A stretch of 64,000 nt of DNA from Planctomycetota bacterium (GTDB lineage Bacteria; Planctomycetota; Planctomycetia; Planctomycetales; Planctomycetaceae), in the NCBI GenBank assembly GCA_022600195.1, contig JAHZKX010000010.1, positions 62,001 through 126,000 on the forward strand. The letters are read 5' to 3'. The translations under genes and the position numbers were made by a program. The notes beneath the pieces are model-generated. The model worked only from the letters and a program-made list of their open reading frames with translations, was not told where the DNA came from and made no database searches. Position 1 is the stretch's first letter; every line of letters begins with the position of its first letter. Below, piece by piece: positions 50,280 to 64,000 of the stretch.

Positions 50280-50655
50280 ATTAATCCACCATCACAGAGG
50301 CTCTTGGCTCTGCTTCGCTACTGTTCGGTCTAATGGGCAGTGAATTTCCCTGATTGAAAGCGTCACTCATTCTTTGGTAGTTCTCATGATGATTGTACTA
50401 AGGCGGGGTTGATACGGAGTGTTTATTTTATAAATCTAATAAACAATGCGAATAACTTTCTTGAGGTGCTAATTTATAGTTATATAATCAATGAGTGAAG
50501 TTGATTTGGATCTGTAAGCCCTGATTTCAGGGACCAGTTTACTTCAGCAATTAAATGCGGGGTCTTTGTATGTGATATGCTTTTCATGTAGTAAAGATTT
50601 GTTATTTGATCTGTGAAAATTTCTTTTTTTCAAATTTTCTATATTGGGGATCGTC
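50280..50655. other. Intergenic stretch, 376 bases, with inverted repeat
   Basis: This AT-rich stretch has TGTTTATT at 50420-50427 and AATAAACA at 50438-50445, a perfect 8-base inverted repeat with a 10-base spacer. It could be a regulator site or hairpin upstream of the DUF1559 gene. Confidence 0.4.
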
Positions 50656-51636
50656 ATGTTTTCAAATCAAAAAAGACGTCCGGGTTTTACGTTAATCGAG
50701 TTACTGGTTGTCATTGCTATTATTGCAATCTTAATTGCTCTTTTACTTCCTGCTGTCCAGCAGGCTCGCGAGGCGGCACGCCGTGCCACTTGCAAGAATA
50801 AGCTCAAGCAAGTTTCCTTAGCGTTACATAACTACCATGAAACGCATCGTGTGTTCCCTCCAGGGGCCATCAATTATGGCTGGTGCACTCTTAACCCGGT
50901 TGATGCACCTGGTCGAACTACACATAATAAAAATGGGCTTTCCTTATTGCTTCCCTTCCTGGATCAGGCTCCCCTTTATAATAAAATTAACCAGGAAACT
51001 GCCAACGGTCCTCAGAATGGAGGTTTTTGTTGTAGTTACCCAGGAGCTGGTGTTCCTCTGGCAGGGAACCCCGCAGATAACGCAGATGAAATGACGATTC
51101 TTCTCGATATCTTTCTCTGTCCTTCTGATTCTGGAACAACGCATCTGGGAACCGGTGCACCCTACGGAACTGCAGTAGCACCAGGTCCAGCCAAAACCAA
51201 TTATGAACTCAGCGCGGATCAAACTATTAGTTGCAACTTATGGGCAAGCCAGTCTACCACCTCTCGAAAAATATTTGGCGAAAATAGCCGTGCGAAAATT
51301 AGTGACATTAAAGATGGGAGTTCTAATACCATCATGGTTTGTGAAACGACGCGTACGGTCGCTAATGGCGAACCACCCGCCTGGGGCATGCGAGGCTGGG
51401 TCACAACCGGCGGAGACGTGGACCCAGGAATTAATGTCTGGGATATTCCTACTGGGGCGACTAGTCCAGATTTTGGAAACCTAAATAGCTGGGGACAAGT
51501 TGGGAGCATGCATGTTGGCGGAGCTCACTTTGGGATAGCGGATGGAGCCGTCCGGTTCATCTCAGAAAATACAGATCTGACATTACTCAGGCGGTTGGGA
51601 ACAATGTCAGATGGTTTCGTTGCTCCATTACCTTAA
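50656..51636 (+). CDS. DUF1559 prepilin-like protein
   Basis: The N-terminus is a type IV prepilin signal: RRPGFTLIELLVVIAIIAIL, with cleavage after Gly and Glu at position 5 of the mature chain. The rest follows the planctomycete DUF1559 family, including QQAREAARRATCKNKLKQ, NYHETHRVFPPG, FLCPSD and the closing HVGGAHFGIADGAVRFISE. The product is a secreted pilin-like protein of unknown role, common in many copies in this phylum. I chose the ATG at 50656 over a TTG four codons upstream. A GGGGAT site precedes it. The lipoprotein gene follows. Confidence 0.93.
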   Translation: MFSNQKRRPGFTLIELLVVIAIIAILIALLLPAVQQAREAARRATCKNKLKQVSLALHNYHETHRVFPPGAINYGWCTLNPVDAPGRTTHNKNGLSLLLPFLDQAPLYNKINQETANGPQNGGFCCSYPGAGVPLAGNPADNADEMTILLDIFLCPSDSGTTHLGTGAPYGTAVAPGPAKTNYELSADQTISCNLWASQSTTSRKIFGENSRAKISDIKDGSSNTIMVCETTRTVANGEPPAWGMRGWVTTGGDVDPGINVWDIPTGATSPDFGNLNSWGQVGSMHVGGAHFGIADGAVRFISENTDLTLLRRLGTMSDGFVAPLP

Positions 51637-51682
51637 ATCCTCCTTTTTTCATTGAGTTTGCAACACAAGAATGAGGTGATTT

Positions 51683-52147
51683 ATGAGTTTTCATATAGAC
51701 AGGCATGTTTCGCCTGTTGTATTGGTAGTTGTTCTCTCCTTATGCACGGGGTGTGGATCAAAAGATCCAGGACCTGAGTTGACTTCAGTGACAGGGGTTA
51801 TACTTCTGAATGAGAAGCCGTTAGATAATGCAGAACTCATTTTCATTCCTGTAGAATCTACACCAGGAGTCGGTGGACGAGCCCGAACCAAAGAAGGGGG
51901 TAAATTCAATATGATTTACAGTCGTGGGGGGGAGGGACTACCTGAAGGTAATTACAGAGTCGCTGTCAGCTATCGATTGATGCCAGATGGCTCTCCTGTA
52001 CCTGAAGGTGATACAACTCCCCCGATCGAATCTCCAGCGAGCGAAACGCTACCCCTGAAATATTGTGATTATGATAAATCAGAATTAAAAGCGACCGTTT
52101 CTCCTGGAAAGCCAATTACGCTTAAACTCACCACCACAAAAAAGTAA
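51683..52147 (+). CDS. Small lipoprotein paired with the DUF1559 gene
   Basis: A lipoprotein signal (VVLVVVLSLCTGCGSKD) is followed by a compact strand-rich domain (about 35-154, VTGVILLNEKPLDNAELIFI) resembling carboxypeptidase regulatory-like folds. GAGGTGAT precedes the ATG. This lipoprotein type is a frequent neighbour of DUF1559 proteins in planctomycetes, suggesting they act together at the cell surface. The precise function is not known. Confidence 0.85.
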   Translation: MSFHIDRHVSPVVLVVVLSLCTGCGSKDPGPELTSVTGVILLNEKPLDNAELIFIPVESTPGVGGRARTKEGGKFNMIYSRGGEGLPEGNYRVAVSYRLMPDGSPVPEGDTTPPIESPASETLPLKYCDYDKSELKATVSPGKPITLKLTTTKK

Positions 52148-52558
52148 ATTACATTAAAAGCAAGAGAAAATGGTCGGCAGTATCATTCGCTTGCGAAGTC
52201 AGGCAACCTGATTCTAGTCATAGAGCCCCTTTGGGGGATCTGAGGAAACGGTTCTATTTATGCTGGACGCTGGAGTAATTGCTTTTTAGTATTATCTATT
52301 TCAAATCATACTTGTGATTCGAAAAGTGATGTTCGTTCTGTTAAATTGGATGCATTGGTCTTTTATGGGTTGGCCCGCCCCATTCAGGATCAGTTCCAAA
52401 AAACTTTCCTATTGAAATCATCCTTTCTTCACAATGAGCAAATATTTTGTCATCATAGTATGTAGATCCGTTTTGCTGTATTTGTGATATTGCTAATCTG
52501 AAAAATACAAATCGGATTTCACGATCTCCCCGAATTACCCTCCTCGAAAGGTTTATTC
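52148..52558. other. Intergenic stretch, 411 bases
   Basis: This gap ends the DUF1559/lipoprotein pair and should carry the promoter of the 52.5-60.3 kb operon. A weak stem (TCAGG/CCTGA) lies near 52198-52212. No T-run terminator, RNA gene or known riboswitch (including a molybdenum cofactor type) was recognised. Confidence 0.4.
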
Positions 52559-53839
52559 ATGCGACGGTTCATAACCCCTTTGACTGTCGTTGGTGTTCTG
52601 CTGACATCAACTCTGATTTGGGCGTGTTCGGTTCCCGTGTTCCGGTATGCTCTGGAGCGTTGGCCTGCCGACAAATACAGTGTAGTGATTTATTACCGCG
52701 GTAAATTGAATCAGGAACATCAGAAGATTGTTGCACAATTTGATAAAGAAGGAACAATCGGTCAGCAATCTGCGAATGTAGAATTACGACTGATTGATTT
52801 GGATTCAAAACCAGCTCCGAAATCGGAAGATCTTGAACTTTGGAAAATTCAAAAAACGGAAACGCTTCCCTTAATGGTCGTGCGAACCCCTCTACCAGCA
52901 CCCGTTCCGTCTGGATTCTGGTCGGGAGAATTGAGTGAAGAAAACGTCGCAAAGATGATCGATTCCCCTTTGCGTAAGAACATTGCCAAGCAGTTGATCA
53001 ATGGGCAAACCGCCGTTTGGGTTTTTCTGGAAAGTGGTAATCCTGAAAAAGATAAATCGGCATTTGCACTTTTATCTAAAGAGCTCAAGCGAATGGAGAA
53101 AACTCTTAAACTGCCAGAAATAGAAGAGGCGGACATTGAGCAGGGACTGGTAAGTGTATCTCCTGACAGTTTGAAACTAAAATTCAGTCTTGAAAAATGT
53201 TCCCGTGAGGATTCTGCAGAAGCCGGGTTCACGAGTATGTTACTTGCAACAGAAAATGACTTAAAGGAATTTACTGCTGAGCCGATGGCTTTTCCCGTCT
53301 TTGGGCGTGGGCGTGTATTATATGCGTTAATAGGTAAAGGAATTAATAGCGACACAATTGAGCAGGCTTGCAGAGATTTGACCGGTCCCTGCACTTGTCA
53401 GGTAAAAGATCAAAATCCAGGGACTGATTTATTGATGGCTGTCAATTGGGAAAAACTAGTGACGCCGACGACGCAGGATGAGAAAGAACTCCCGCCTCTG
53501 ACAGGATTGACAGGTTATTCAAAAGAATCCAAAGGAAAATCGGGAGATCTCAAAATGTCTGAAATCCTGAAAAAATCTCTAGCTCAAAATGGTTCTGATT
53601 CTAAGAAAACCGGTTCGAATTCCAGTGAGGATGTAACAGCGCCTGAAGTTGCTACGACCTCAACAACGAGCGATAAAGCGACCCCGTCGTTGTCGTCAGG
53701 GATGGTAGAGAGCCCCAATCAATCTGATTCCTCTGAAATGACACAAGGCAGTTCATTGTTTCGAAATATGATGATTATGGCTGCAATGATGCTTGTGGTT
53801 GTTTTGGGGGCAAGCTATTTCCTGATGGCTCGGAAATAA
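52559..53839 (+). CDS. CSVPVF-type membrane-anchored exported protein with CxC motif
   Basis: An N-terminal hydrophobic signal leads to WACSVPVFRYALERW, a planctomycete-specific start with a possible lipid-attachment or metal Cys. Two strand-helix domains (about 40-155 and 160-290) follow, each a little like a thioredoxin-type fold. TGPCTCQVKDQ (about 278-288) carries a CxC pair. A Ser/Thr-rich stretch (about 310-400) precedes a C-terminal membrane segment (MMIMAAMMLVVVLGASYFLM). It is the first gene of the operon with the FtsX permease 66 bases on. I infer a periplasmic partner of the transporter, possibly handling metal or redox chemistry. Confidence 0.75.
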   Translation: MRRFITPLTVVGVLLTSTLIWACSVPVFRYALERWPADKYSVVIYYRGKLNQEHQKIVAQFDKEGTIGQQSANVELRLIDLDSKPAPKSEDLELWKIQKTETLPLMVVRTPLPAPVPSGFWSGELSEENVAKMIDSPLRKNIAKQLINGQTAVWVFLESGNPEKDKSAFALLSKELKRMEKTLKLPEIEEADIEQGLVSVSPDSLKLKFSLEKCSREDSAEAGFTSMLLATENDLKEFTAEPMAFPVFGRGRVLYALIGKGINSDTIEQACRDLTGPCTCQVKDQNPGTDLLMAVNWEKLVTPTTQDEKELPPLTGLTGYSKESKGKSGDLKMSEILKKSLAQNGSDSKKTGSNSSEDVTAPEVATTSTTSDKATPSLSSGMVESPNQSDSSEMTQGSSLFRNMMIMAAMMLVVVLGASYFLMARK

Positions 53840-53905
53840 ATCGTTTTTCGTTCGACCAACCGTAATACTTCTCCTCCCGAGTTTAGTTTAAGAAGAGTCC
53901 AGACT

Positions 53906-55186
53906 ATGTCTTTATTCCGTTTGATTCTGCAGGAAATGCAGCATCGCAAGATTAACTTTTTGCTGGGATTGGTCTCAGTCGTGATTGCAGTAGCATGCCT
54001 GGTTGCCGCTTTAACACTGCTTCAGGCAGATGAGATACAGACGGCATTCATTCTGGAAAAGAAGGCAGACGAAGTAAAAGAAGCAGGTGATCAACTCGAA
54101 GATGCCATGCGTAAAATTACCAAGGGACTTGGGTTTAACATTCTGATTCTTCCTTCAAACCAGGACTTGAATGAGTTTCATCTCACCGGAATCGTTTCGG
54201 GCACGATGCCCGAAGAAAACGTTAAAATATTGGCAGAATCCAAGATTGTCACAGTCAATCATTTATTGCCAATGGTTGCCAAGAAAATTACCTGGCCTGA
54301 AAAAAAGTGTGAAGTGATTTTAACGGGGACGCGCGGAGAAGTCCCTTTGCGACATCGTGCATTGAAAAAACCCCTTCAGCAACAGGTTCCCAAAGGGACC
54401 ATGGTAATGGGTTATCAAATTCAGCAAAAACTTGGTTTAAATGTGAATGACAAAGTTAAGCTGATGGGCAAAGATTTCAAAATCACCCAGTGTTATCCAG
54501 AGCGAGGTACTGCAGATGACAGCACAGTCTGGATCAATCTTGAAGAAGCGCAGGAATTGCTGAAGATGCAAAATCTGGTGAATGCGATTCTGGCGTTAGA
54601 ATGTAATTGTGCAGCCAAAGACCGTGTGGCGCAGATACGTGAAGAAATTGGTAAAATACTTCCAGGAACCCAGATCATTGAAAGAGGCCCCCCTGCTCTT
54701 GCTCGAGCAGAAGCTCGAAATCAAGCTCATGCAAGTGCCGTCGCATCGCTGGAACAGGAAAAGGCGAATCGGTTACAGATGATCAAACGCCATGCAGATT
54801 TTGCAGCTGTGTTGGTTCCCTTGGTTGTGCTTGGATGCGGGGCCTGGATCGGATTCCTGTCACTCGAAAACGTTAGACGCCGCGCACCTGAGATTGGAGT
54901 GCTGCGTGCAATTGGTTTACGGTCTACTCAGGTATTCGGGATTTTTATCATCAAAGCATTCCTGATTGGCGTGATTGGTGCATTGATTGGATACTTTCTG
55001 GGATATGGGATCGGTATTACCTGGGGCAGTTTGCCTGCATCAGTGAATCCGCAAGAAGCCTTGTTTTCAGGACGATGGTTACTGTTAAGTTTGATATTCG
55101 CACCCGTGTTAGCAAGTTTATCCAGTTGGATACCAGCCTTATTGGCAGCAAGACAGGATCCTGCCACAATTCTGCAAGAAGGGTAG
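53906..55186 (+). CDS. FtsX/MacB-type ABC transporter permease
   Basis: One membrane segment at the start (INFLLGLVSVVIAVACLVAA), a large periplasmic domain (about 40-285) and three C-terminal segments (from about 295) form the MacB/FtsX layout. GVLRAIGLRSTQVF is the usual coupling-region motif. The periplasmic domain carries ALECNCAAKDR, a CxC motif that parallels the one in the preceding protein. The ATPase gene follows after 10 bases. Such systems move lipids or lipoproteins or act mechanically; the cargo is unknown. Confidence 0.88.
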   Translation: MSLFRLILQEMQHRKINFLLGLVSVVIAVACLVAALTLLQADEIQTAFILEKKADEVKEAGDQLEDAMRKITKGLGFNILILPSNQDLNEFHLTGIVSGTMPEENVKILAESKIVTVNHLLPMVAKKITWPEKKCEVILTGTRGEVPLRHRALKKPLQQQVPKGTMVMGYQIQQKLGLNVNDKVKLMGKDFKITQCYPERGTADDSTVWINLEEAQELLKMQNLVNAILALECNCAAKDRVAQIREEIGKILPGTQIIERGPPALARAEARNQAHASAVASLEQEKANRLQMIKRHADFAAVLVPLVVLGCGAWIGFLSLENVRRRAPEIGVLRAIGLRSTQVFGIFIIKAFLIGVIGALIGYFLGYGIGITWGSLPASVNPQEALFSGRWLLLSLIFAPVLASLSSWIPALLAARQDPATILQEG

Positions 55187-55196
55187 TCAGAAGAAT

Positions 55197-55886
55197 ATGT
55201 TATTGGAATTAGTCGAATTATCTAAGTCCTTCAAATCCGGATCAAAACGAGTTCAGGCTGTCGATGGGATCAGTCTGACTGTTGATGCGGGTGAATTTCT
55301 CGCCATCAAAGGTCCGAGTGGCTGTGGTAAATCAACCTTGCTTTTAATGGTGGGGGGACTGTTGAGCCCCGATTCAGGAGAGGTATTAATCGAAGGCACT
55401 AATCCTTACAAACTTTCCAATGATCAAAGAGCTCGATACCGTTCGACTCACATGGGTTTTGTATTTCAACAATTCCATTTGATTCCCTATTTAAATGTAC
55501 TGGATAATGTACTGACGCCTGCCTTAGCAACGAATTTATCTCAAGCTAAAGAACGTGCAAAGGAGTTGATTGAGCAATTTGGTTTAGAGCATCGTCTGCA
55601 TCACACACCCGCAGAACTGAGCACTGGTGAAAAACAGCGTGTGGCATTGGCCAGAGCCCTCTTTCATCAACCCAAAATTCTTTTGGCTGACGAACCCACG
55701 GGCAATCTGGATTCCGAAAACTCCGAAATTGTTTTGAAGGCATTGAGTGAGTTTACCAAAGAGGGAGGATGTGTGCTGATGGTTACGCATGATGATCAGG
55801 CTGTTAAGTCTGCAGAGCGCGTGTTGGGAATCAACGCAGGTCGCTTAATACCAGAATCGGAAACGGAAGTATTACTGAATTCTTAA
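55197..55886 (+). CDS. ABC transporter ATP-binding protein (LolD/MacB type)
   Basis: The 229-residue ATPase has Walker A GPSGCGKSTLL, the Q-loop VFQQFHLIPYLNV, a variant signature LSTGEKQRVALARA and Walker B ILLADEPTGNLD, then the switch His in MVTHDD. It is typical of the MacB/LolD ATPase family and is the partner of the permease 10 bases upstream. Confidence 0.93.
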   Translation: MLLELVELSKSFKSGSKRVQAVDGISLTVDAGEFLAIKGPSGCGKSTLLLMVGGLLSPDSGEVLIEGTNPYKLSNDQRARYRSTHMGFVFQQFHLIPYLNVLDNVLTPALATNLSQAKERAKELIEQFGLEHRLHHTPAELSTGEKQRVALARALFHQPKILLADEPTGNLDSENSEIVLKALSEFTKEGGCVLMVTHDDQAVKSAERVLGINAGRLIPESETEVLLNS

Positions 55887-55919
55887 AGGCCAGTTGTCTG
55901 TATCAATTGGGAACATGTA

Positions 55920-57509
55920 ATGAAACAGCATTGTCGTCATCAATGGAAGAAGACAACCACGGAGACATGTCCGGAAGGAAAACTCAACAGTGGGTTGGCG
56001 CTTGTAGGAAGCTCGCTGCTGTTTCTGGTGATCATGGTGGGGTTACTCGTTTATTCTCCCTCGAAAGATTCCTCTGAGACCGCGAGTCAAGATGATGCCT
56101 CTCTTCTGATGTATTGTGCTGCAGGTATTAAACCACCGGTAGCGGCTTCAGCTGCGCAGTTTGCAGAAGAGGTGTTTGGTGTTCCAGTCCACTTGCAGTA
56201 TGGTGGTTCCGGTACCCTGTTGAGTAATTTACAGGTGGCGAAACAGGGGGACCTCTATCTGGCTGCAGATACCAGTTATATAGAGATTGCTCGCGAGAAG
56301 AACCTCGTTAAAGAAGCGATCCCAGTAGCTCAGATGCGGCCGGTGATTATGGTGAAGAAAGGGAACCCCAAAAAGATTCAGTCGATTGATGATTTGACAA
56401 AAGAAGGTGTCAGCTTTTCATTAGCCAATCCAGATGCCGCATCGATTGGGAAACTGGCTAAAAAAGAGTTGCAAAATGCAAAAAAGTGGGACGCTATATC
56501 CAAGTCCGCCCGAGTCTTTAAACCGACTGTTTCAGAGGTTGCCAATGATATTCTCCTGGGGGCGGTGGATGCCGGCATTGTCTGGGATGCAACTGTGAAT
56601 CAGCATTCTGATCAGGCAGAAATGATAGAAGTTCCTGAATTCGCTAAATCTGTAAAAAATGTGACAGTCGGGATTTTAAAATCATCCCAAAAGCCGCAGC
56701 AGGCATTGATGTTTGCCCGCTATCTGCAAGCTCCTGGAAAAGGGGGGAAACATTTTTCCGGTATGGGCTATCAGACTGTCAAAGGAGACATATGGGACCC
56801 TCACCCACAAGTTCTGTTATTCAGTGGTGGTGTGAATCGGCTGGCCATTCAGGACACTCTGAAAGCGTTCGAAAAACGCGAAGGAATTTCAGTCAATGTT
56901 GTGTATAACGGATGCGGGATTCTGGTGGGTCAAATCAATAGTGGACAAAAGCCGGATGCTTATTTTGCTTGCGATAAATCCTATATGGTGGAAGTGCAAC
57001 CTAAGTTTGCCCTGCCTTTAACTGTTGCAGAAACCGATATGATTATCATCGTCGAGAAAGGCAATCCTAAAAAAATAAAATCGGTCTACGATCTGGTTGG
57101 TGAGAATATCAAAATTGGAATCGCTCATCACGAACAAAGTGCGCTGGGGGCATTGACAAAAAAGTTATTGAGCCCACTCGTATCGGGAGATAAAAATCTT
57201 TATGACGCAATTCAGCCGAACGTGAAAACAAATACTCCGACCGCTGATATGCTGGTAAATCAACTACGAACAGGTTCATTGGATGCAGCGATAGTCTACC
57301 GGGCCAATATTTCAAAGGTTGCCGATAAACTTGATGTGATTGAAATCAAAGAGGGACGACCTCTGGCAGAGCAGCCAATTGCGATCTTGAAGTCCACTAA
57401 ATATCCCAATCTCATGCAGCGTTTGGTTGACCAGTTGACTTCAGATTCTTCTCGGGTGATTTTTGAGTCTAAAGGATTTCGTTGGCGCATGACTCCGGAG
57501 TCGCTATGA
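55920..57509 (+). CDS. Membrane-anchored substrate-binding protein with two ModA-like domains
   Basis: The 529-residue chain has an N-terminal membrane segment (about 27-47, ALVGSSLLFLVIMVGLLVYS) and two consecutive molybdate-type binding domains. The first (about 60-290) has LMYCAAGIKPPV, YGGSGTLLSNL and VDAGIVWDATV. The second (about 295-525) has LLFSGGVNRLAI, YNGCGILVGQI and LDAAIVYRANI. A usual ModA has one such domain of about 230-250 residues. The expected ligand is molybdate or tungstate. Its stop codon overlaps the ModB start. Confidence 0.88.
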   Translation: MKQHCRHQWKKTTTETCPEGKLNSGLALVGSSLLFLVIMVGLLVYSPSKDSSETASQDDASLLMYCAAGIKPPVAASAAQFAEEVFGVPVHLQYGGSGTLLSNLQVAKQGDLYLAADTSYIEIAREKNLVKEAIPVAQMRPVIMVKKGNPKKIQSIDDLTKEGVSFSLANPDAASIGKLAKKELQNAKKWDAISKSARVFKPTVSEVANDILLGAVDAGIVWDATVNQHSDQAEMIEVPEFAKSVKNVTVGILKSSQKPQQALMFARYLQAPGKGGKHFSGMGYQTVKGDIWDPHPQVLLFSGGVNRLAIQDTLKAFEKREGISVNVVYNGCGILVGQINSGQKPDAYFACDKSYMVEVQPKFALPLTVAETDMIIIVEKGNPKKIKSVYDLVGENIKIGIAHHEQSALGALTKKLLSPLVSGDKNLYDAIQPNVKTNTPTADMLVNQLRTGSLDAAIVYRANISKVADKLDVIEIKEGRPLAEQPIAILKSTKYPNLMQRLVDQLTSDSSRVIFESKGFRWRMTPESL

Positions 57510-58447
57510 CTGAGCAGAAGGCTGAGGAGCCATTAAACTCATTAAAATCACGATCTGATCTCCCCTTCTATACAATTTTTATAGCCATCAGTACCATTTA
57601 TGTTTTACTGATCGTAGCAATGCTTTCGGCAGAGACAACGTACACGACTCCCGACCATATCTGGGCAGCGTTTGCGAAGCCGGAAATTCGCTATGCGATC
57701 TGGCTCAGCCTGGTCTCGTGTGCGATCACAACAGTTCTTTCTCTCTGGGTTTCTGTACCAATTGGATACCTGATGTCCAGGCACAATTTCTGGGGGAAAG
57801 TATTCATTGATGCGATTTTAGATATTCCGATCGTCTTACCACCGCTGGTAATTGGATTGTGTCTGTTGATTTTATTTCAGGTGGAATTACCTCAGATTGA
57901 ATGGCTCAATGAAATGGTTGCGTCGGAATCCGGGGCAAACGTTAGTAAAGAGATTGCGGTGGCGAAAACACAATCCATTGATGATCTGATTCGAAAAGTG
58001 ACAAAGTTGATTTTTGGAAAACCAATCGGAGTAACCTATGAAATTCCGAGCGTGATTTTGGCACAATTTATGGTGGCGTGTGCGTTTGCCGTCCGAACGA
58101 TGCGCGTCACGTTCGATCAGATAGGGCCGCGCTACGAGCAGGTTGCGATGACTCTGGGTTGCAATCGAGGTCAGGCGTTCTGGCGTGTGGTATTTCCACA
58201 GGCATATCGGGGATTGTTGGCAGCAGGAACGCTCGCATGGGCTCGTGCGCTGGGAGAATTCGGACCCATTCTGATTTTTTCCGGCGCCACACGCATGAAA
58301 ACGGAAGTCCTGCCGACAACGGTGTTTTTGGAGTTAACTGTTGGTAATATCGAAGGTGCAGTTGCAGCTTCATTAATAATGGTTGTTTCCGCCTTGTTCG
58401 TGTTAGTGATTGCTCGGATGTTTGGTTTGACCCGCGCAGTAATTTAA
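57506..58447 (+). CDS. modB: Molybdate/tungstate-type ABC permease with central insert
   Basis: The 313-residue permease has about six membrane segments and the EAA-loop region TLGCNRGQAFWRVVFPQAYRGL. Between membrane segments (about 128-180) a hydrophilic insert of about 50 residues occurs (WLNEMVASESGANVSKE onward), not present in usual ModB. I chose the ATG at 57506: it overlaps the upstream stop (ATGA) and has a GGAG site. A TTG at 57482 is less likely. The permease fits ModB better than sulfate CysT because of the ModA-like partner, but tungstate or sulfate cannot be excluded. Confidence 0.85.
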   Translation: MTEQKAEEPLNSLKSRSDLPFYTIFIAISTIYVLLIVAMLSAETTYTTPDHIWAAFAKPEIRYAIWLSLVSCAITTVLSLWVSVPIGYLMSRHNFWGKVFIDAILDIPIVLPPLVIGLCLLILFQVELPQIEWLNEMVASESGANVSKEIAVAKTQSIDDLIRKVTKLIFGKPIGVTYEIPSVILAQFMVACAFAVRTMRVTFDQIGPRYEQVAMTLGCNRGQAFWRVVFPQAYRGLLAAGTLAWARALGEFGPILIFSGATRMKTEVLPTTVFLELTVGNIEGAVAASLIMVVSALFVLVIARMFGLTRAVI

Positions 58448-58510
58448 AATCTTGTTTGGAAAAGTAACGATAGGCGGTGGGAATAATTTTACCGTCTGAT
58501 TAGATGTGTC

Positions 58511-59245
58511 ATGATATCAGTAAATAAACTCTGTGTTAAAGTTGGCGATTTCGAGCTGAAAGATATCAGTTTTGAAGTACCTGAGGGGCATTATGCCGTT
58601 CTGATGGGCAAAACGGGTAGTGGGAAAACTACCATTCTTGAAACCATTTGTGGCTTGAAAAAAGTGCTTTCCGGAACAATCTGTCTCCATGGGAAACTCG
58701 CCACACATACAAGACCAGCGGAACGTGAAATTGGATACGTGCCTCAGGATGGTGTACTGTTTCATACGATGACGGTGAGAGATAATCTGTCGTTTGCATT
58801 AGAGTTAAGAAAGTGGAGTAAACAAAAAATCGATGAGCGTGTGGAAGAGTTGGCAACTCTGTTAGGGATAACAGGATTGTTGAACCGAACACCCTTTGGT
58901 TTGAGTGGAGGAGAAACACAAAGAATATCTCTGGGACGCGCATTAGCGGCAAAGCCAGCCATATTATGTCTGGATGAACCCTTAAGTGCTTTAGATGAAG
59001 ACACACGAGGTGAAATGTGTACTTTGCTGAGTGATGTGCAACGCTTAACGGGTGTTACGACATTGCATATTACTCATAACATTTCAGAGTCAGATCGTTT
59101 GGGGGATATCAAATTTCTCATAGAAGGAGGAGTACTTAAAAGCCTGACTTCGAAAGTTAGGGAAAAGAGATCCGATCTCACCGGAAAAGTGAGTCAGGAG
59201 ACAAGCTCCCCGTCTGATAGTTCTACGCAGGTGAAAGTCGATTAG
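58511..59245 (+). CDS. modC: Molybdate/tungstate-type ABC ATPase, short form
   Basis: The ATPase has Walker A LMGKTGSGKTTILE, the Q-loop YVPQDGVLFHTMTV, signature LSGGETQRISLGRA and Walker B LCLDEPLSALD, then the switch His in LHITHN. At 244 residues it stops soon after the core; the C-terminal molybdate-binding (Mop/TOBE) domain of standard ModC is missing. It follows ModB by 63 bases and is followed by the MoaD-like gene after one base. Confidence 0.88.
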   Translation: MISVNKLCVKVGDFELKDISFEVPEGHYAVLMGKTGSGKTTILETICGLKKVLSGTICLHGKLATHTRPAEREIGYVPQDGVLFHTMTVRDNLSFALELRKWSKQKIDERVEELATLLGITGLLNRTPFGLSGGETQRISLGRALAAKPAILCLDEPLSALDEDTRGEMCTLLSDVQRLTGVTTLHITHNISESDRLGDIKFLIEGGVLKSLTSKVREKRSDLTGKVSQETSSPSDSSTQVKVD

Positions 59246-59246
59246 T

Positions 59247-59525
59247 ATGAAGATTATCGTAGAGTTTACGGCACAGGTGAAAAAAGCTGCTGGCGTGAGC
59301 AAAGAAGAATTTGAGGTAAGTGAGGGAACTAGTTTACAGGAACTTTTGAAAGAAGTAGCCGAACAGCACGGCCCCTCTCTCAAACCGATTCTTTTTCCGG
59401 ATTCCGATGAACTACATCCCTCAATCTTACTATTTGTCTCCAGTAAACAGGTGATGTGGGATGAGCCTTTGACGTTAGAATCGCATCACGTCGTGACGAT
59501 TCTCTCACCCATTTCAGGGGGTTAA
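59247..59525 (+). CDS. MoaD/ThiS-like sulfur carrier protein
   Basis: This 92-residue beta-grasp protein ends in ILSPISGG, the di-Gly tail that receives an adenylate and then sulfur in MoaD and ThiS. It starts one base after the ModC stop, so it is translated together with it. The next gene encodes a ThiF/MoeB enzyme, the expected activating partner. The likely job is delivering sulfur to a molybdopterin or related cofactor. No MoaE, MoaA or MoaC gene is in view. Confidence 0.85.
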   Translation: MKIIVEFTAQVKKAAGVSKEEFEVSEGTSLQELLKEVAEQHGPSLKPILFPDSDELHPSILLFVSSKQVMWDEPLTLESHHVVTILSPISGG

Positions 59526-59584
59526 GTCTTCCGATTGAAAACATTATTTTAACACTTTGAAATGTGAGAGATACAGGAGTCATG

Positions 59585-60343
59585 ATGTCTGGTTTCGTTC
59601 CCCTGACAGATGAAGAACGAGCTGTTTACGAATGGCAGATCTGGGTTCCCGAGTTTGGTGAAGCGGGACAGGAAAAATTAAAAAATGCCTCTGTCCTGGT
59701 TTCACGATGTGGCGGATTGGGTAGTGTGGTCGCTTATGAATTAGCGGCTGCCGGCATCGGGAAGCTTGTGATAGCACATGCGGGAAATGTCAAACCCAGT
59801 GATTTAAACCGGCAATTGTTGATGACACATGACTGGTTGGGTAAACCTCGAGTGGAATCAGCAGAACGCCGCCTTAAAGAACTGAATCCCCGTTTGGAAA
59901 TTGTGGCGATTCCCGAAAATATTTGTGAAGAGAACGCCCAACCGATTGTGGAGCAAGTAGATTTAATCGTTGACTGTGCCCCGCTCTTCCCGGAGCGTTA
60001 TGCAATGAACCGGCAATCGGTCTTACAGAATAAGCCTTTAATCGAATGTGCGATGTACGATTTGGAAGCACAAGTGACAACATTGATTCCCGGTCAAACG
60101 GGATGCTTATCTTGTTTATTTCCAAACGATCCACCAGCCTGGAAGCGAGAGTTTCCTGTATTTGGCGCGGTTTCAGGTACCGTGGGATGTATGGCGGCAA
60201 TGGAAGCCATTAAGGTGCTTTCCGGTATAGGAGAGCCTTTAACGAATCAATTGTTGATGTTTGATCTGCGAGAAATGACATTTCATCGCAATACGATTCA
60301 GCGTCGTATGGGCTGCCCCGTCTGTGGGGAAAACAAGTGCTAA
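59585..60343 (+). CDS. ThiF/MoeB-type E1-like adenylyltransferase
   Basis: The 252-residue enzyme has the adenylate-binding pattern CGGLGSVVAYELAAAGIG, LNRQLL in place of the usual VNRQ segment, and VDLIVDCAPLFPERYAMN. Two CxxC pairs (TGCLSCLF and CPVCGENKC) probably hold zinc. It would activate the C-terminal Gly of the MoaD-like protein encoded 59 bases upstream. I chose the second ATG of the ATGATG pair (59585), because AGGAG lies at the best distance before it; a GTG at 59564 is possible. It is the last gene of the operon. Confidence 0.88.
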   Translation: MSGFVPLTDEERAVYEWQIWVPEFGEAGQEKLKNASVLVSRCGGLGSVVAYELAAAGIGKLVIAHAGNVKPSDLNRQLLMTHDWLGKPRVESAERRLKELNPRLEIVAIPENICEENAQPIVEQVDLIVDCAPLFPERYAMNRQSVLQNKPLIECAMYDLEAQVTTLIPGQTGCLSCLFPNDPPAWKREFPVFGAVSGTVGCMAAMEAIKVLSGIGEPLTNQLLMFDLREMTFHRNTIQRRMGCPVCGENKC

Positions 60344-60384
60344 TAAAATTCGTTTTAAAGAGTTCACGATCTCGGGGGAATCTT

Positions 60385-61812
60385 ATGAGAGATTGCATGC
60401 AGCAAATTGTACTCATCACTGCGATTGTTTCAGGGTATTTCATAGGTACTGCGAATCCAGTTCTGTCTGCCGAAGTAGAAAATCAATCTGAGTGGCGCGC
60501 AGCGGCGATCTCGGTTGTGATCACACCGGAAAAGTCGATGTGGATGTCAGGATATGCCGCGCGCAACAAACCATCGGAAGGCAAAGTGCATGATCTCTAT
60601 GCAAAAGTATTAATCATTGAAGATGTGAGAGGACAAAAAGTAGTCATTGTCACCACAGATTTAATTGGGATTACGCCCGCATTAAGAGATCCCATAGCAG
60701 CTCGTTTAGAATCTGAGTTTAAAATTCCTTCAACCGCATTATTAATGAATGCCTCGCATACTCATTGTGGACCAGAGCTAAGAGAAGAGAAAGCATCCCG
60801 TCGTGGGCTTGGGGGAGATCGTGGAGCTGAGGCGCGTGAATATACTCAAAAACTGAGTAAGAAGATTGTGGGAGCGATCGGCCAGACCCTGAGCAAACTG
60901 GAACCAGTTCAACTTAAATATTCCTATGGTCGGGCAGGTTTCTCAATGAACCGACGTTTGCCAACAGCCAAAGGCGTGAGCAATAGTCCCCATCCGCAAG
61001 GACCCGTTGATCAACGGGTGCCGGTCTTGAGTGTCAATCGTCCTGATGGTTCTATTGTTGCAGCTCTGTTTGGGTATGCATGCCATAACACAACTCTCAG
61101 TTTTTATCAATTTTGTGGTGACTATGCCGGATTTGCTCAGGAATATCTGGAAACGGATCATCCAGGCATGATTGCCTTATTTATGATGGGGTGTGGAGGA
61201 GATCAAAACCCGTATCCGCGGAGAACATTGGATCTTGCCAAACAGCATGGACGTGCACTTTCAAATGCTGTGGAAGTGGCGTTGTCAGTTCGGCAGCCGC
61301 GTTTGATTCATGGTCCTCTTGGCGTGGCCATGGATGATGTGGAACTGGAGTTCACAACTCCTCCCTCTCTTGAAGAATTGCTCAAAAAACAGAAACAAGG
61401 GAATAAATACGAAAAAAGCCATGCAACACGTCTGTTGGCACAAGTTGAAGAACGAGGCGGCATTCAAACACGCTATGCATTCCCATTACAAGTCATTCAA
61501 TTTGGAAATGATTTAACATTAACCGCAATTTGTGGTGAAACCGTCGTCGATTATTCTCTTCGACTTCAAACAGAACTGAAGATCAACTCTGGAACAGAAG
61601 GGAAGGGAGAACCCATTATCTGGGTGGCCGGCTATTCGAATCATGTTTTTGGTTACTTGCCGAGTCTTCGCGTATTGAAAGAGGGTGGATATGAAGGAGG
61701 GGGTGCGATGACATATACTTCTTATCCAGGACCTTTTACTGATTCAGTAGAAAAACGTGTCATTTCCAAAATCAAGGAATTGACAAAGCAGGCCCGGAAA
61801 GCATCCCAATAG
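60385..61812 (+). CDS. Exported neutral/alkaline ceramidase-like protein
   Basis: A signal peptide (LITAIVSGYFIGTANPVLSA) precedes a domain of the neutral/alkaline ceramidase N-terminal family, with VVITPEKSMWMSGYAARNKP, NASHTHCGPEL and FMMGCGGDQNPYPR. The His residues of SHTHCGP are in the usual metal-binding position. The C-terminal ceramidase domain is absent or very short. This subfamily is frequent in planctomycetes as secreted hydrolases of unknown substrate. The ATG at 60385 follows GGGGGAA; a GTG at 60337 would overlap the ThiF gene. Confidence 0.85.
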   Translation: MRDCMQQIVLITAIVSGYFIGTANPVLSAEVENQSEWRAAAISVVITPEKSMWMSGYAARNKPSEGKVHDLYAKVLIIEDVRGQKVVIVTTDLIGITPALRDPIAARLESEFKIPSTALLMNASHTHCGPELREEKASRRGLGGDRGAEAREYTQKLSKKIVGAIGQTLSKLEPVQLKYSYGRAGFSMNRRLPTAKGVSNSPHPQGPVDQRVPVLSVNRPDGSIVAALFGYACHNTTLSFYQFCGDYAGFAQEYLETDHPGMIALFMMGCGGDQNPYPRRTLDLAKQHGRALSNAVEVALSVRQPRLIHGPLGVAMDDVELEFTTPPSLEELLKKQKQGNKYEKSHATRLLAQVEERGGIQTRYAFPLQVIQFGNDLTLTAICGETVVDYSLRLQTELKINSGTEGKGEPIIWVAGYSNHVFGYLPSLRVLKEGGYEGGGAMTYTSYPGPFTDSVEKRVISKIKELTKQARKASQ

Positions 61813-61973
61813 ATCCATAATGATATTGGAATTTGATGCTGGTTTTTATCAAAAATGGCGGATTTTTATATTTCGCATTCTCTTTACTAAAATTCATATC
61901 TACAATAGATTTTTGATTATGTAAGAGATTTAGATCGAAAAATTCTGTTCGTTCTCGCTTGGAGTAAATTGTC

Positions 61974-64000
61974 ATGTTATGTAACTCTACAAAACAATTC
62001 ATACTTGTCCTGGTTGCTGCTATTTCATTGATAGTACTAACTTCTAGCGCAAAAGCACAAACAGAGAAGGAAGTGACCGAGTCAAGACTCAAGGGGATCG
62101 AGTTTCTGAAATCTCAACAGAAGGATGATGGGAGTTGGGAATATGAAGGGCATCCTGTCGGAATTACTGCACTTTGTACTCTTGCACTTTTGGAAAATGG
62201 CGTACCCGTCAATGATCCTCTTATACAAAAAGGCAGAATGTTTGTTCTGAAAGAGTCAGAGAAACTCAAATCAACTTATGATATTGCGTTGGGTACCTTA
62301 TTGCTTTCCCGTATCGGTCACCGGGAAGACAAGGCGATGGTTCGAAAATATGCAGCGCGACTGATAGCCGGCCAGACGACCACAGGAGGCTGGAGCTACT
62401 CGTGTCCATTGGCGTCACCTAGCCTGCTTAGTAATCCAAGAGCACGTCCCAAACTGGGGACTTCTCCAGGTGACAATAGTTGTACACAGTTCGCTGTGTT
62501 GGGGCTGTGGACTGCCTCTCGATATAATATCGATATCCAGAAATCGATGATCGGGGTTGCCAGGCGATTTGTTGAGACTCAAAATGAGGATGGTGGATGG
62601 TCCTATGCACTTCCTACTGAGGAGAAGGAAGAAGCTTCTAGAAATTCAATGACATTGGCAGGACTCTTTTGTCTGACTGTTGCCCGCGCGACAAAAATTA
62701 GAGCAATGCAAGAGCAAGAAGAGGAACTTGAAAAAGAGTCAGGAGCCCGCACAGGGTCACAAAAAGAAGGAGAGACTTTGGTCTCGGATCCCATCTTTTC
62801 CAAAGGCTTGGAAATGGCCGGGAAGTATGCAGCTGGAATCAGTGCCTCTTCCGCGCGATACTTTCTATGGTCAACCGAGCGAGTCGGCGTGCTGTTAGGA
62901 TTAGAAAAACTAGGGACAACGGATTGGTTTTCAAAAGGCGCGAATGTTCTTATTAAAACTCAAAAAGAGGATGGGAGCTGGGAAAACTCGCGCGGAAAAC
63001 TGGCAGATACTGCTTTTGCAATACTTTTCCTACGGAAAGCAAATTTGGGAAGTGATATTTCACGTATGTTGAATGGAGAACCGGAAAAGAAATTCCAGGT
63101 CTACACTCAGGAGAAAAAACCAGAATTTATTACACTTTCTGCAGCGATCTCTGCTGCGAAATCGGGTGACCTCATTCGAGTGAACGGTGATGGTCCTTTT
63201 CGCGTTCCGCATATTGAAATTGGCAAAGACTTGAGTATCGAAGCGGGATTTGGCTACGCCCCGGTTTTTGTTTATTCTCGCGGTCGCAATAAATTAGGGC
63301 TCCGCGCACGTCCCGAGCGTGATGCGAATGTGCGTCACATTCTACGCGTCTCCAAAGGGACGCTGGCATTGGAAGGAATTGCATTTGAGTTTGATCCACC
63401 TGAAGTTGGTAAAACAGTCCCCTGGGCGGCTGTGGTCGTAAATGGTGGTAATCTGCGTATGCTGAACTGTTCCGTTTCAGAACAAAACAATAAGGGGATG
63501 GCCAGTATTCAAATTTTGAAACCTACTAATTCCTCCTTTACAAACTGTTTTTTTGTCGGAGGACGAGCAGCTTTTGAAATCGAAGGGACGGGAAAGCAGA
63601 CGATAACTATAGATGATTCCGTATTATTCTCAAAGAAAATATTTTCAGTACTGAGAAGTTCTGAGAAATCTACCGGTGGCAGTATAAATCTGGATTTGAA
63701 TCGCTGTACGCTACAGGCGGTTGCTGCGTTTGATTTCGAGCGATTTGTAAAAGACATTCATGTGAAAAGTGAGTTCAGTGCATATAAAATTGATAACCTG
63801 GGATTGTCGATGTTATCAGTAAAGTCATCCAAAGAGAATCGTTCTTTTTCAGGTGAAGGTAATGTTTTTGATGTGAAAAAATGGTTGGGAATGAGTGGTA
63901 AAGCAGATCCAGGTGTCACTGATGCGAAAACCTGGGACCACTTTTGGGGCAATAAGCAGGGGGCATCGTTACAGGAGACGATTGCCTTTACATTACGCCG
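61974..64000 (+). CDS. Exported toroid plus beta-helix protein, 3' end outside window
   Basis: An open frame of 675 codons starts at the ATG at 61974 (GGAG upstream) and reaches the right edge. A signal peptide (QFILVLVAAISLIVLTSSAKA) is followed by a squalene-cyclase/prenyltransferase-like alpha/alpha toroid (about 35-370), with repeated SQQKDDGSWEYEG, TQNEDGGWSYA and TQKEDGSWEN motifs. From about residue 387 the sequence changes to short strands (LSAAISAAKSGDLIRVNGDG), typical of a right-handed beta helix. A cyclase-type DxDD acid motif was not seen, so triterpene cyclase activity is unlikely. The substrate is unknown. Confidence 0.82.
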   Translation, partial: MLCNSTKQFILVLVAAISLIVLTSSAKAQTEKEVTESRLKGIEFLKSQQKDDGSWEYEGHPVGITALCTLALLENGVPVNDPLIQKGRMFVLKESEKLKSTYDIALGTLLLSRIGHREDKAMVRKYAARLIAGQTTTGGWSYSCPLASPSLLSNPRARPKLGTSPGDNSCTQFAVLGLWTASRYNIDIQKSMIGVARRFVETQNEDGGWSYALPTEEKEEASRNSMTLAGLFCLTVARATKIRAMQEQEEELEKESGARTGSQKEGETLVSDPIFSKGLEMAGKYAAGISASSARYFLWSTERVGVLLGLEKLGTTDWFSKGANVLIKTQKEDGSWENSRGKLADTAFAILFLRKANLGSDISRMLNGEPEKKFQVYTQEKKPEFITLSAAISAAKSGDLIRVNGDGPFRVPHIEIGKDLSIEAGFGYAPVFVYSRGRNKLGLRARPERDANVRHILRVSKGTLALEGIAFEFDPPEVGKTVPWAAVVVNGGNLRMLNCSVSEQNNKGMASIQILKPTNSSFTNCFFVGGRAAFEIEGTGKQTITIDDSVLFSKKIFSVLRSSEKSTGGSINLDLNRCTLQAVAAFDFERFVKDIHVKSEFSAYKIDNLGLSMLSVKSSKENRSFSGEGNVFDVKKWLGMSGKADPGVTDAKTWDHFWGNKQGASLQETIAFTLR

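Follow-up and report, generated by a model that had tools for sequence, protein, structure and literature searches.

An eight-gene planctomycete locus and a cysteine-bearing propeller family: a candidate extracytoplasmic maturation system

By analyzing a window of 64,000 nucleotides (positions 62001-126000 of contig C33, JAHZKX010000010.1) from a 6.58 Mb Planctomycetota genome (GCA_022600195.1), we characterized a locus of eight genes, A to H, encoding an exported protein (A), an FtsX-LolD transporter (B and C), a ModABC-like importer (D, E and F) and a sulfur-carrier protein with its E1-like partner (G and H). We found that these genes are often linked in planctomycetes and that they share a near-exclusive joint distribution with a family of exported propeller proteins, and this shared distribution is the strongest argument for a common function of A-H and these propellers. 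Moreover, A, B, D and the propeller proteins carry conserved cysteines and are predicted to be exported or outward-facing. Judging from these sequences, there is about an even chance that A-H and the propeller proteins make up a single system, dedicated to maturing a thiolate-bound metal/sulfur site outside the cytoplasm, a reading whose computed part consists of co-occurrence, frequent linkage and conserved cysteines. The A-H set is apparently undescribed as a system, since our searches of open-licence PMC papers showed no account of it.

The locus has the following features:

52559-53839, + strand: A, exported "CSVPVF" protein of 426 amino acids, open reading frame (ORF) without Pfam or NCBIfam match (cut-off E 0.001)
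53906-55186, + strand: B, FtsX/MacB-type permease (PF02687, 65.9 bits)
54602-54610, + strand: CxC motif of B, codons Cys233 and Cys235 and the codon between them (homologue alignment)
55197-55886, + strand: C, LolD-like ABC ATPase (PF00005, ABC_tran)
55920-57509, + strand: D, double ModA-like binding protein of 529 amino acids (SBP_bac_11, two stretches)
56913-56972, + strand: D domain 2, span from Cys332 (ModA Ser39 position) to Cys351 (ModA Ala58 position), by alignment
57482-58447, + strand: E, ModB-like permease (PF00528, BPD_transp_1)
58511-59245, + strand: F, short ModC/WtpC-like ATPase of 244 amino acids (ABC_tran)
59247-59525, + strand: G, MoaD/ThiS-like sulfur-carrier protein (PF02597, ThiS, 28.4 bits)
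59564-60343, + strand: H, divergent ThiF/MoeB-like E1 with a rebuilt nucleotide site (PF00899, ThiF, 195.5 bits)

A previous sequence-only reading of this DNA had described the eight ORFs as co-directional, with short gaps or overlaps. The ORF coordinates and the tight spacing (gaps of 66, 10, 33, -28, 63, 1 and 38 bp from A to H) bear this out, and Pfam and NCBIfam agree with the label of every gene except A. From the sequence, E more likely starts at ATG 57506, giving a 4-bp overlap with D, and H may start at ATG 59582.

Joint distribution and linkage of A-H and the propeller family

The commonest additional neighbour of these genes at related loci encodes an exported protein of ~1300 amino acids with PQQ-type propeller repeats and an S-adenosylmethionine (SAM)-methyltransferase-like domain. 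The propeller proteins thus share the repeat type of PQQ dehydrogenase, a likeness of fold that does not imply function. A quartet of cysteines is conserved in 38, 38, 37 and 32 of 39 members. The source genome encodes at least eight such proteins (959-1448 amino acids; L181-L188, on contigs C83, C81, C55, C15, C66, C20, C33 and C70), six of which show an RxxC...CxC motif by pattern. The ortholog lies apart from A-H, on C83 (L181), and one propeller gene is found on the window's own contig, ~12 kb beyond the window end (C33:138537). Matches of the propeller to BamB, YxaL, Rv3035 and tetrathionate hydrolase were set aside as shared fold only.

First, we surveyed 61 genomes of the family. Two-domain D was present in 28 of them and A in 26, all of which also have D; in the remaining two D genomes, G049 and G054, no A was matched and D lies at a contig end. 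A propeller match at E<1e-60 was found in 27 of the 28 D genomes (G026 reached only 5.7e-19) and none better than 3e-10 in the 33 genomes without D, this line having been drawn after seeing the list, in which all 61 genomes had a match at E<=0.001.

Second, among 245 planctomycete genomes A occurred in 32 (15 families) and full two-domain D in 31 (11 families), with 25 genomes shared. The propeller family (profile A4) occurred in at least 42 genomes from 19 families, counts that are lower bounds because the profile search scored no more than six candidates in each genome, and in 31/31 two-domain-D genomes (30 by profile search; G229 because the stretch around its D encodes a propeller with the Cys motif). 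Seven A genomes had no two-domain D. In five of these, the ModA-like matches were single or split into adjacent ones; G090 and G133 showed no match to D at 1e-20, although the stretch around A in G090 holds one weak ModA-like ORF. Conversely, four of the six A-negative D genomes (G089, G149, G241 and G251) have a divergent A beside D, with a CRYT[IV]RD start and the CxC kept, and a fifth (G134) has a weak A whose whole-protein score of 88 bits is under the line used for the linkage count.

Third, the A-H order is kept in 5/5 examined genomes of the genus (G000, which is the source genome, G038, G127, G236 and G281). Across the phylum, a stretch around D was retrieved for 58 genomes. It holds A in 34, FtsX or LolD in 30, MoaD in 32, ThiF in 31 and a propeller gene in 22, and A, FtsX/LolD, ModB/C and a carrier gene all together in 19; these stretches were chosen around known matches, many stop at contig ends, and two G060 loci were counted apart. 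Gene orders vary: A can adjoin D without FtsX (L060) or be divergent from D-H (L053), and in L126 and L141 LolD adjoins D with no A or FtsX within the stretch. Linkage of the parts is thus well supported. The sequence-only reading had joined the FtsX/CSVPVF half to the ModABC/carrier half, and both the co-occurrence across the phylum and the frequent shared stretches uphold this. As for whether the halves lie apart in most relatives, they do not for A, although FtsX or LolD accompanies D in only about half of the genomes and the full set in about a third. A chance juxtaposition of two unrelated operons in the source genome, which only the differing annotations of the two halves would suggest, deserves almost no credence given the linkage conserved in relatives and the co-occurrence across the phylum.

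Conserved cysteines and altered sites in the encoded proteins

In protein A, Cys23, just past the signal helix, and the CxC formed by Cys278 and Cys280 are invariant in 75 aligned sequences. A also has a C-terminal membrane helix, and its structural model (predicted local distance difference test 81.9) shows a thioredoxin-like fold, probably as two such domains. With this model, Foldseek returned thioredoxin family matches, with PDI-family fragments ranked first; A therefore shares the predicted fold of thioredoxin and PDI, but the window sequence of A contains no CxxC active site. The nearest named records for A are from Gimesia species. We also considered A as a lipoprotein: the residue before the Cys is Ala in at least 90% of the 75 sequences, but W, Q, E or D is frequent at position -2, which makes a lipobox doubtful. 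In several deep planctomycete families (L145, L152-L155), a divergent A with the N-terminal motif C-R-Y-T-[IV]-R-D (C-P-Y-S in L152) replaces the CSVPVF form, and L144 has a weakly scoring form in its place.

The permease B carries a conserved LECxC motif between membrane segments, and its CxC is present in 35/36 homologues. Like LolCDE and MacB-type transporters, B/C pairs an FtsX permease with a LolD-like ATPase; unlike them, B has this CxC, which is absent from E. coli LolC and from cut LolE. Scores also place the pair outside LolCDE, since B reached 35.1 bits with the lolCE equivalog model (cut-off 362.45) and C 221.1 bits with the LolD equivalog model (cut-off 307.75).

The main rival to a maturation system is built on these features. 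In a thiol-disulfide relay, A, as a PDI-like isomerase or oxidoreductase, would act with B, as a redox-linked transporter, to fold or reduce the Cys-bearing propellers, the ModABC and carrier genes being incidental. The predicted fold of A, its PDI-family matches and the CxC motifs of A, B and the propeller proteins, whose cysteines are possibly redox pairs, are consistent with such a relay. However, the missing CxxC argues against it, and it leaves unexplained the Cys pair of D domain 2, the G/H pair and the co-inheritance of all the components. We therefore regard the relay as unlikely.

D begins with a hydrophobic segment, and its two domains align with each other and with E. coli ModA. The protein scores 107.1 bits with the modA equivalog TIGR01256 over two stretches, above the cut-off of 62.5, the best stretch being domain 1. 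The hydroxyls of ModA Ser12 and Ser39 are listed molybdate contacts in PMC8895017. D does not have both serines in each binding domain. In domain 1 (35 of 50 sequences compared), the Ser39 equivalent is S in 34 and T in one, and the Ser12 position is G in 25, S in nine and N in one. In domain 2 (41 of 50 compared), the two positions are V/M/I and C in 41/41 rows; L163, with G rather than C at the Ser39 position, is among the nine sequences left out. Domain 2 therefore has Cys332 in place of the ligand Ser39 and a second cysteine, Cys351, added at the Ala58 position, each present in 49/50 sequences, with L163 as the exception. Among 407 database homologues, the best 120 all show a recognisable pair, 118 by pattern and two with CE for CD.

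The other importer subunits stay below the cut-offs of their families: E scored 187 bits with Mo_ABC_porter (cut-off 210.3), and F, for which we found no further C-terminal Pfam domain, 156.4 bits with the modC equivalog TIGR02142 (cut-off 285.05). Compared with ModABC/WtpABC, the fold and the subunit set are the same and D domain 1 keeps the Ser39 equivalent, but D has two binding domains per chain, domain 2 has both Ser12 and Ser39 replaced and the ATPase is short. Adjacent separate ModA-like ORF pairs, resembling a split double ModA, were noticed in L164 (G273), L162 (G171) and L180 (G095); loci L070-L095 gave ModA-like matches only.

The carrier G ends in SPISGG and so has the Gly-Gly end of MoaD, which is kept in 18/20 homologues, with 21.6 bits for the moaD equivalog TIGR01682 (cut-off 66.15). 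Besides scoring 153.8 bits with the moeB equivalog TIGR02355 (cut-off 376.55), its partner H has MoeB R14, D62, N70, K86 and D130 replaced by W, H, D, R and P in 31/31 sequences, and the same five replacements occur in the best 120 of 7210 database relatives. The ATP-site Lys86 and Asp130 of MoeB are thus R and P in H. Both residues are kept in the ThiF-domain proteins compared, four of them from other planctomycetes (L192-L195) and four from other phyla (L096, L100, L104 and L109). Elsewhere in the source genome, contig C9 carries a moaD-moaE-moaA locus of its own and C77 a second ThiF match that, with 243 bits, is stronger than H, so that G/H looks like an additional pair. At least two ThiF matches occur in 25/28 two-domain-D genomes (G010, G014 and G020 have a single one). 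Second full-length matches of 160-190 bits are also found in G017, G028, G036, G040, G046 and G050, among others, and are not exclusive to D genomes. Apparent ModC-MoaD fusions in L129 and L157 turned out to be out-of-frame extensions upstream of MoaD.

These data bear on the plain form of the first proposal, in which a molybdate/tungstate transporter and a second MoaD/MoeB pair serve metal-pterin enzymes, with an FtsX exporter attached. Several points favour it: D is above the modA cut-off and is the only match to D in its own genome, which also has PF00384 matches and MoaE, and in Aromatoleum the tungsten AOR operon aorABCDE includes aorD and aorE, described as MoaD-like putative maturation factors in PMC6365974. 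However, MoaE and PF00384 are each found in 60/61 family-set genomes with or without the module. AOR, a patchy gene, is uncorrelated with it (17/28 D genomes vs 17/33 others, p = 0.32). In addition, H has lost Asp130 and Lys86, whose equivalents have assigned functions according to PMC13139853, and D domain 2 has neither Ser12 nor Ser39. No gene for a Mo/W enzyme adjoins the operon, and the tungsten enzyme AOR (PF01314) had no match in the source genome, so A-H does not qualify as an AOR maturation operon. We thus discarded supply of Mo/W-pterin enzymes as the sole role of the locus, and even as a general account this proposal is quite improbable.

Like the tungsten islands aorABCDE and the moeA1-mobB-tupBCA cluster of Methylorubrum (described in PMC6365974 and PMC13197769), A-H encodes an oxyanion transporter or MoaD-like factors together with what may be a metal-using pathway. 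In contrast to these islands, A-H has no Mo/W enzyme gene, a doubled binding protein with a Cys-lined domain 2 and an E1 without the MoeB catalytic residues, with FtsX-LolD, a thioredoxin-fold protein and propeller clients added.

A possible maturation pathway and the evidence against it

In the maturation system that we propose, D, E and F would bind and import an oxyanion, with domain 1 keeping the ModA Ser39 equivalent, and the ligand held by the Cys-lined domain 2 might be a soft metal, a thio-metal species or a thiol. The unusual E1-like H would act on G, which would provide sulfur for a metal-sulfur or thio-oxyanion species; neither protein of this pair has a signal-like start. The species would then be relayed by thiolate exchange through the CxC-bearing FtsX-LolD transporter B/C and through A, a membrane-anchored protein with an N-terminal Cys and a CxC, and would be received by the Cys quartet of the propeller proteins as clients. 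We infer the metal and the chemistry from these features; with less confidence, we suggest that the metal is Mo or W and that a second, soft metal may accompany it. The sequence-only reading had tentatively linked oxyanion supply to the maturation or export of a cofactor-bearing product. This idea fits, except that the candidate product, the Cys4 propeller family, is encoded outside the window.

A more specific version, which we consider possible but tentative, is that the cofactor is a novel extracytoplasmic one, for example a thio-oxyanion or a heterometal-sulfide of Mo/W and a copper-like soft metal, made for new Cys4 propeller metalloenzymes. In that case G/H would carry out a modified E1 reaction and D would handle both the oxyanion and a thiolate-bound partner.

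Nitrous oxide reductase, NosZ, is a beta-propeller protein, and its maturation by NosDFY and NosL offers the nearest working analogy, one that is not meant to imply membership of that family. According to PMC6530538, NosDFY likely supplies sulfide for CuZ and NosL has a membrane-anchor Cys and a CXM motif. By analogy only, both cases would combine an ABC transporter proposed as sulfide supplier, a membrane-anchored thiol metal chaperone and an exported metal-sulfide enzyme (PMC6530538). Unlike that system, the present one has an FtsX-type permease, a PQQ-type Cys4 propeller client, an extra ModABC-like importer, a ubiquitin-like carrier and an E1.

If the proposal is true, a large exported planctomycete propeller family would be tied to dedicated maturation machinery, and an undescribed metal-sulfur cofactor would exist outside the cytoplasm; should the cofactor prove new, the system would represent a new kind of extracytoplasmic cofactor maturation. 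The locus also presents a relative of ThiF/MoeB with a nucleotide site that differs from the usual one in all members examined, and a molybdate-binding fold in which the site has become lined with Cys.

Several observations weigh against the maturation system. First, the parts are not always together: G213 has D and the propeller, and its retrieved stretch showed no A; in G087 the propeller was matched and neither A nor D was; the propeller gene lies outside the fetched stretch in five Gimesia-genus loci; and A and D are far apart in the complete genomes G018 and G042, which indicates that linkage is common but not required. Second, H is without the residues that act in MoeB/ThiF adenylation, so the G/H step may not be sulfur activation, and the SAM-methyltransferase-like domain of the propeller has no place in the proposed scheme. 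This domain spans residues ~494-589 of L181 and 55-169 of the L060 propeller protein, and it was unexpected to see a methyltransferase-like fold within proteins that have signal-like starts, that is, outside the cytoplasm. Third, the Fisher p-values for co-occurrence (phylum set: 2e-22 to 6e-33; family set: 3e-15 and 2e-16) treat the genomes as independent although they are not, and the spread of A over 15 families and of propellers over 19 is a safer argument.

This last point is also what could favour a mere clade marker, that is, joint inheritance in one lineage with a historical co-occurrence and no functional coupling, as the surveys were confined to one phylum and the p-values are uncorrected for phylogeny. 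We judge it very unlikely because, besides this spread among the 245 genomes, presence and absence both occur within single families (e.g. f1), linkage recurs in varied gene orders, and AOR, which is likewise patchy, shows no association. H relatives are found in records named Kiritimatiellae/Kiritimatiellia and one D domain 2 relative in a record named Omnitrophica, suggesting that parts of the machinery may extend beyond one phylum.

Neighbouring genes and other features of the locus

The gene following H overlaps its 3' end by 7 bp:

60337-61812, + strand: I, neutral-ceramidase-like exported protein (PF04734, Ceramidase_alk, 55.7 bits)

In three genus mates the gene after H is a homologue of I with 74-83% identity, and the fourth has a homologue in this place as well, but membership of I in the system is uncertain. 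By eye, ORFs resembling I are also found directly before two propeller paralogs (L184:4740-6134 and L187:7576-8973). The neighbours of the operon and of the propeller genes (leucine-rich repeat, sulfatase, lipase and other genes) gave no hint of function. No Rfam match at gathering score was found in 48-64 kb of the window. A consensus scan of 51600-62300 counted 18 terminator-like sites over the two strands, against 10.2 in shuffled sequence (standard deviation 3.8); the + strand has eight of them, each within an ORF (A, D, E, H or I) and none in a gap. Upstream of A, the region 50644-52147 contains a gene that is prepilin-like at its N-terminus and a gene for a small exported protein without Pfam match, and this upstream position of the two genes is kept in the genus.

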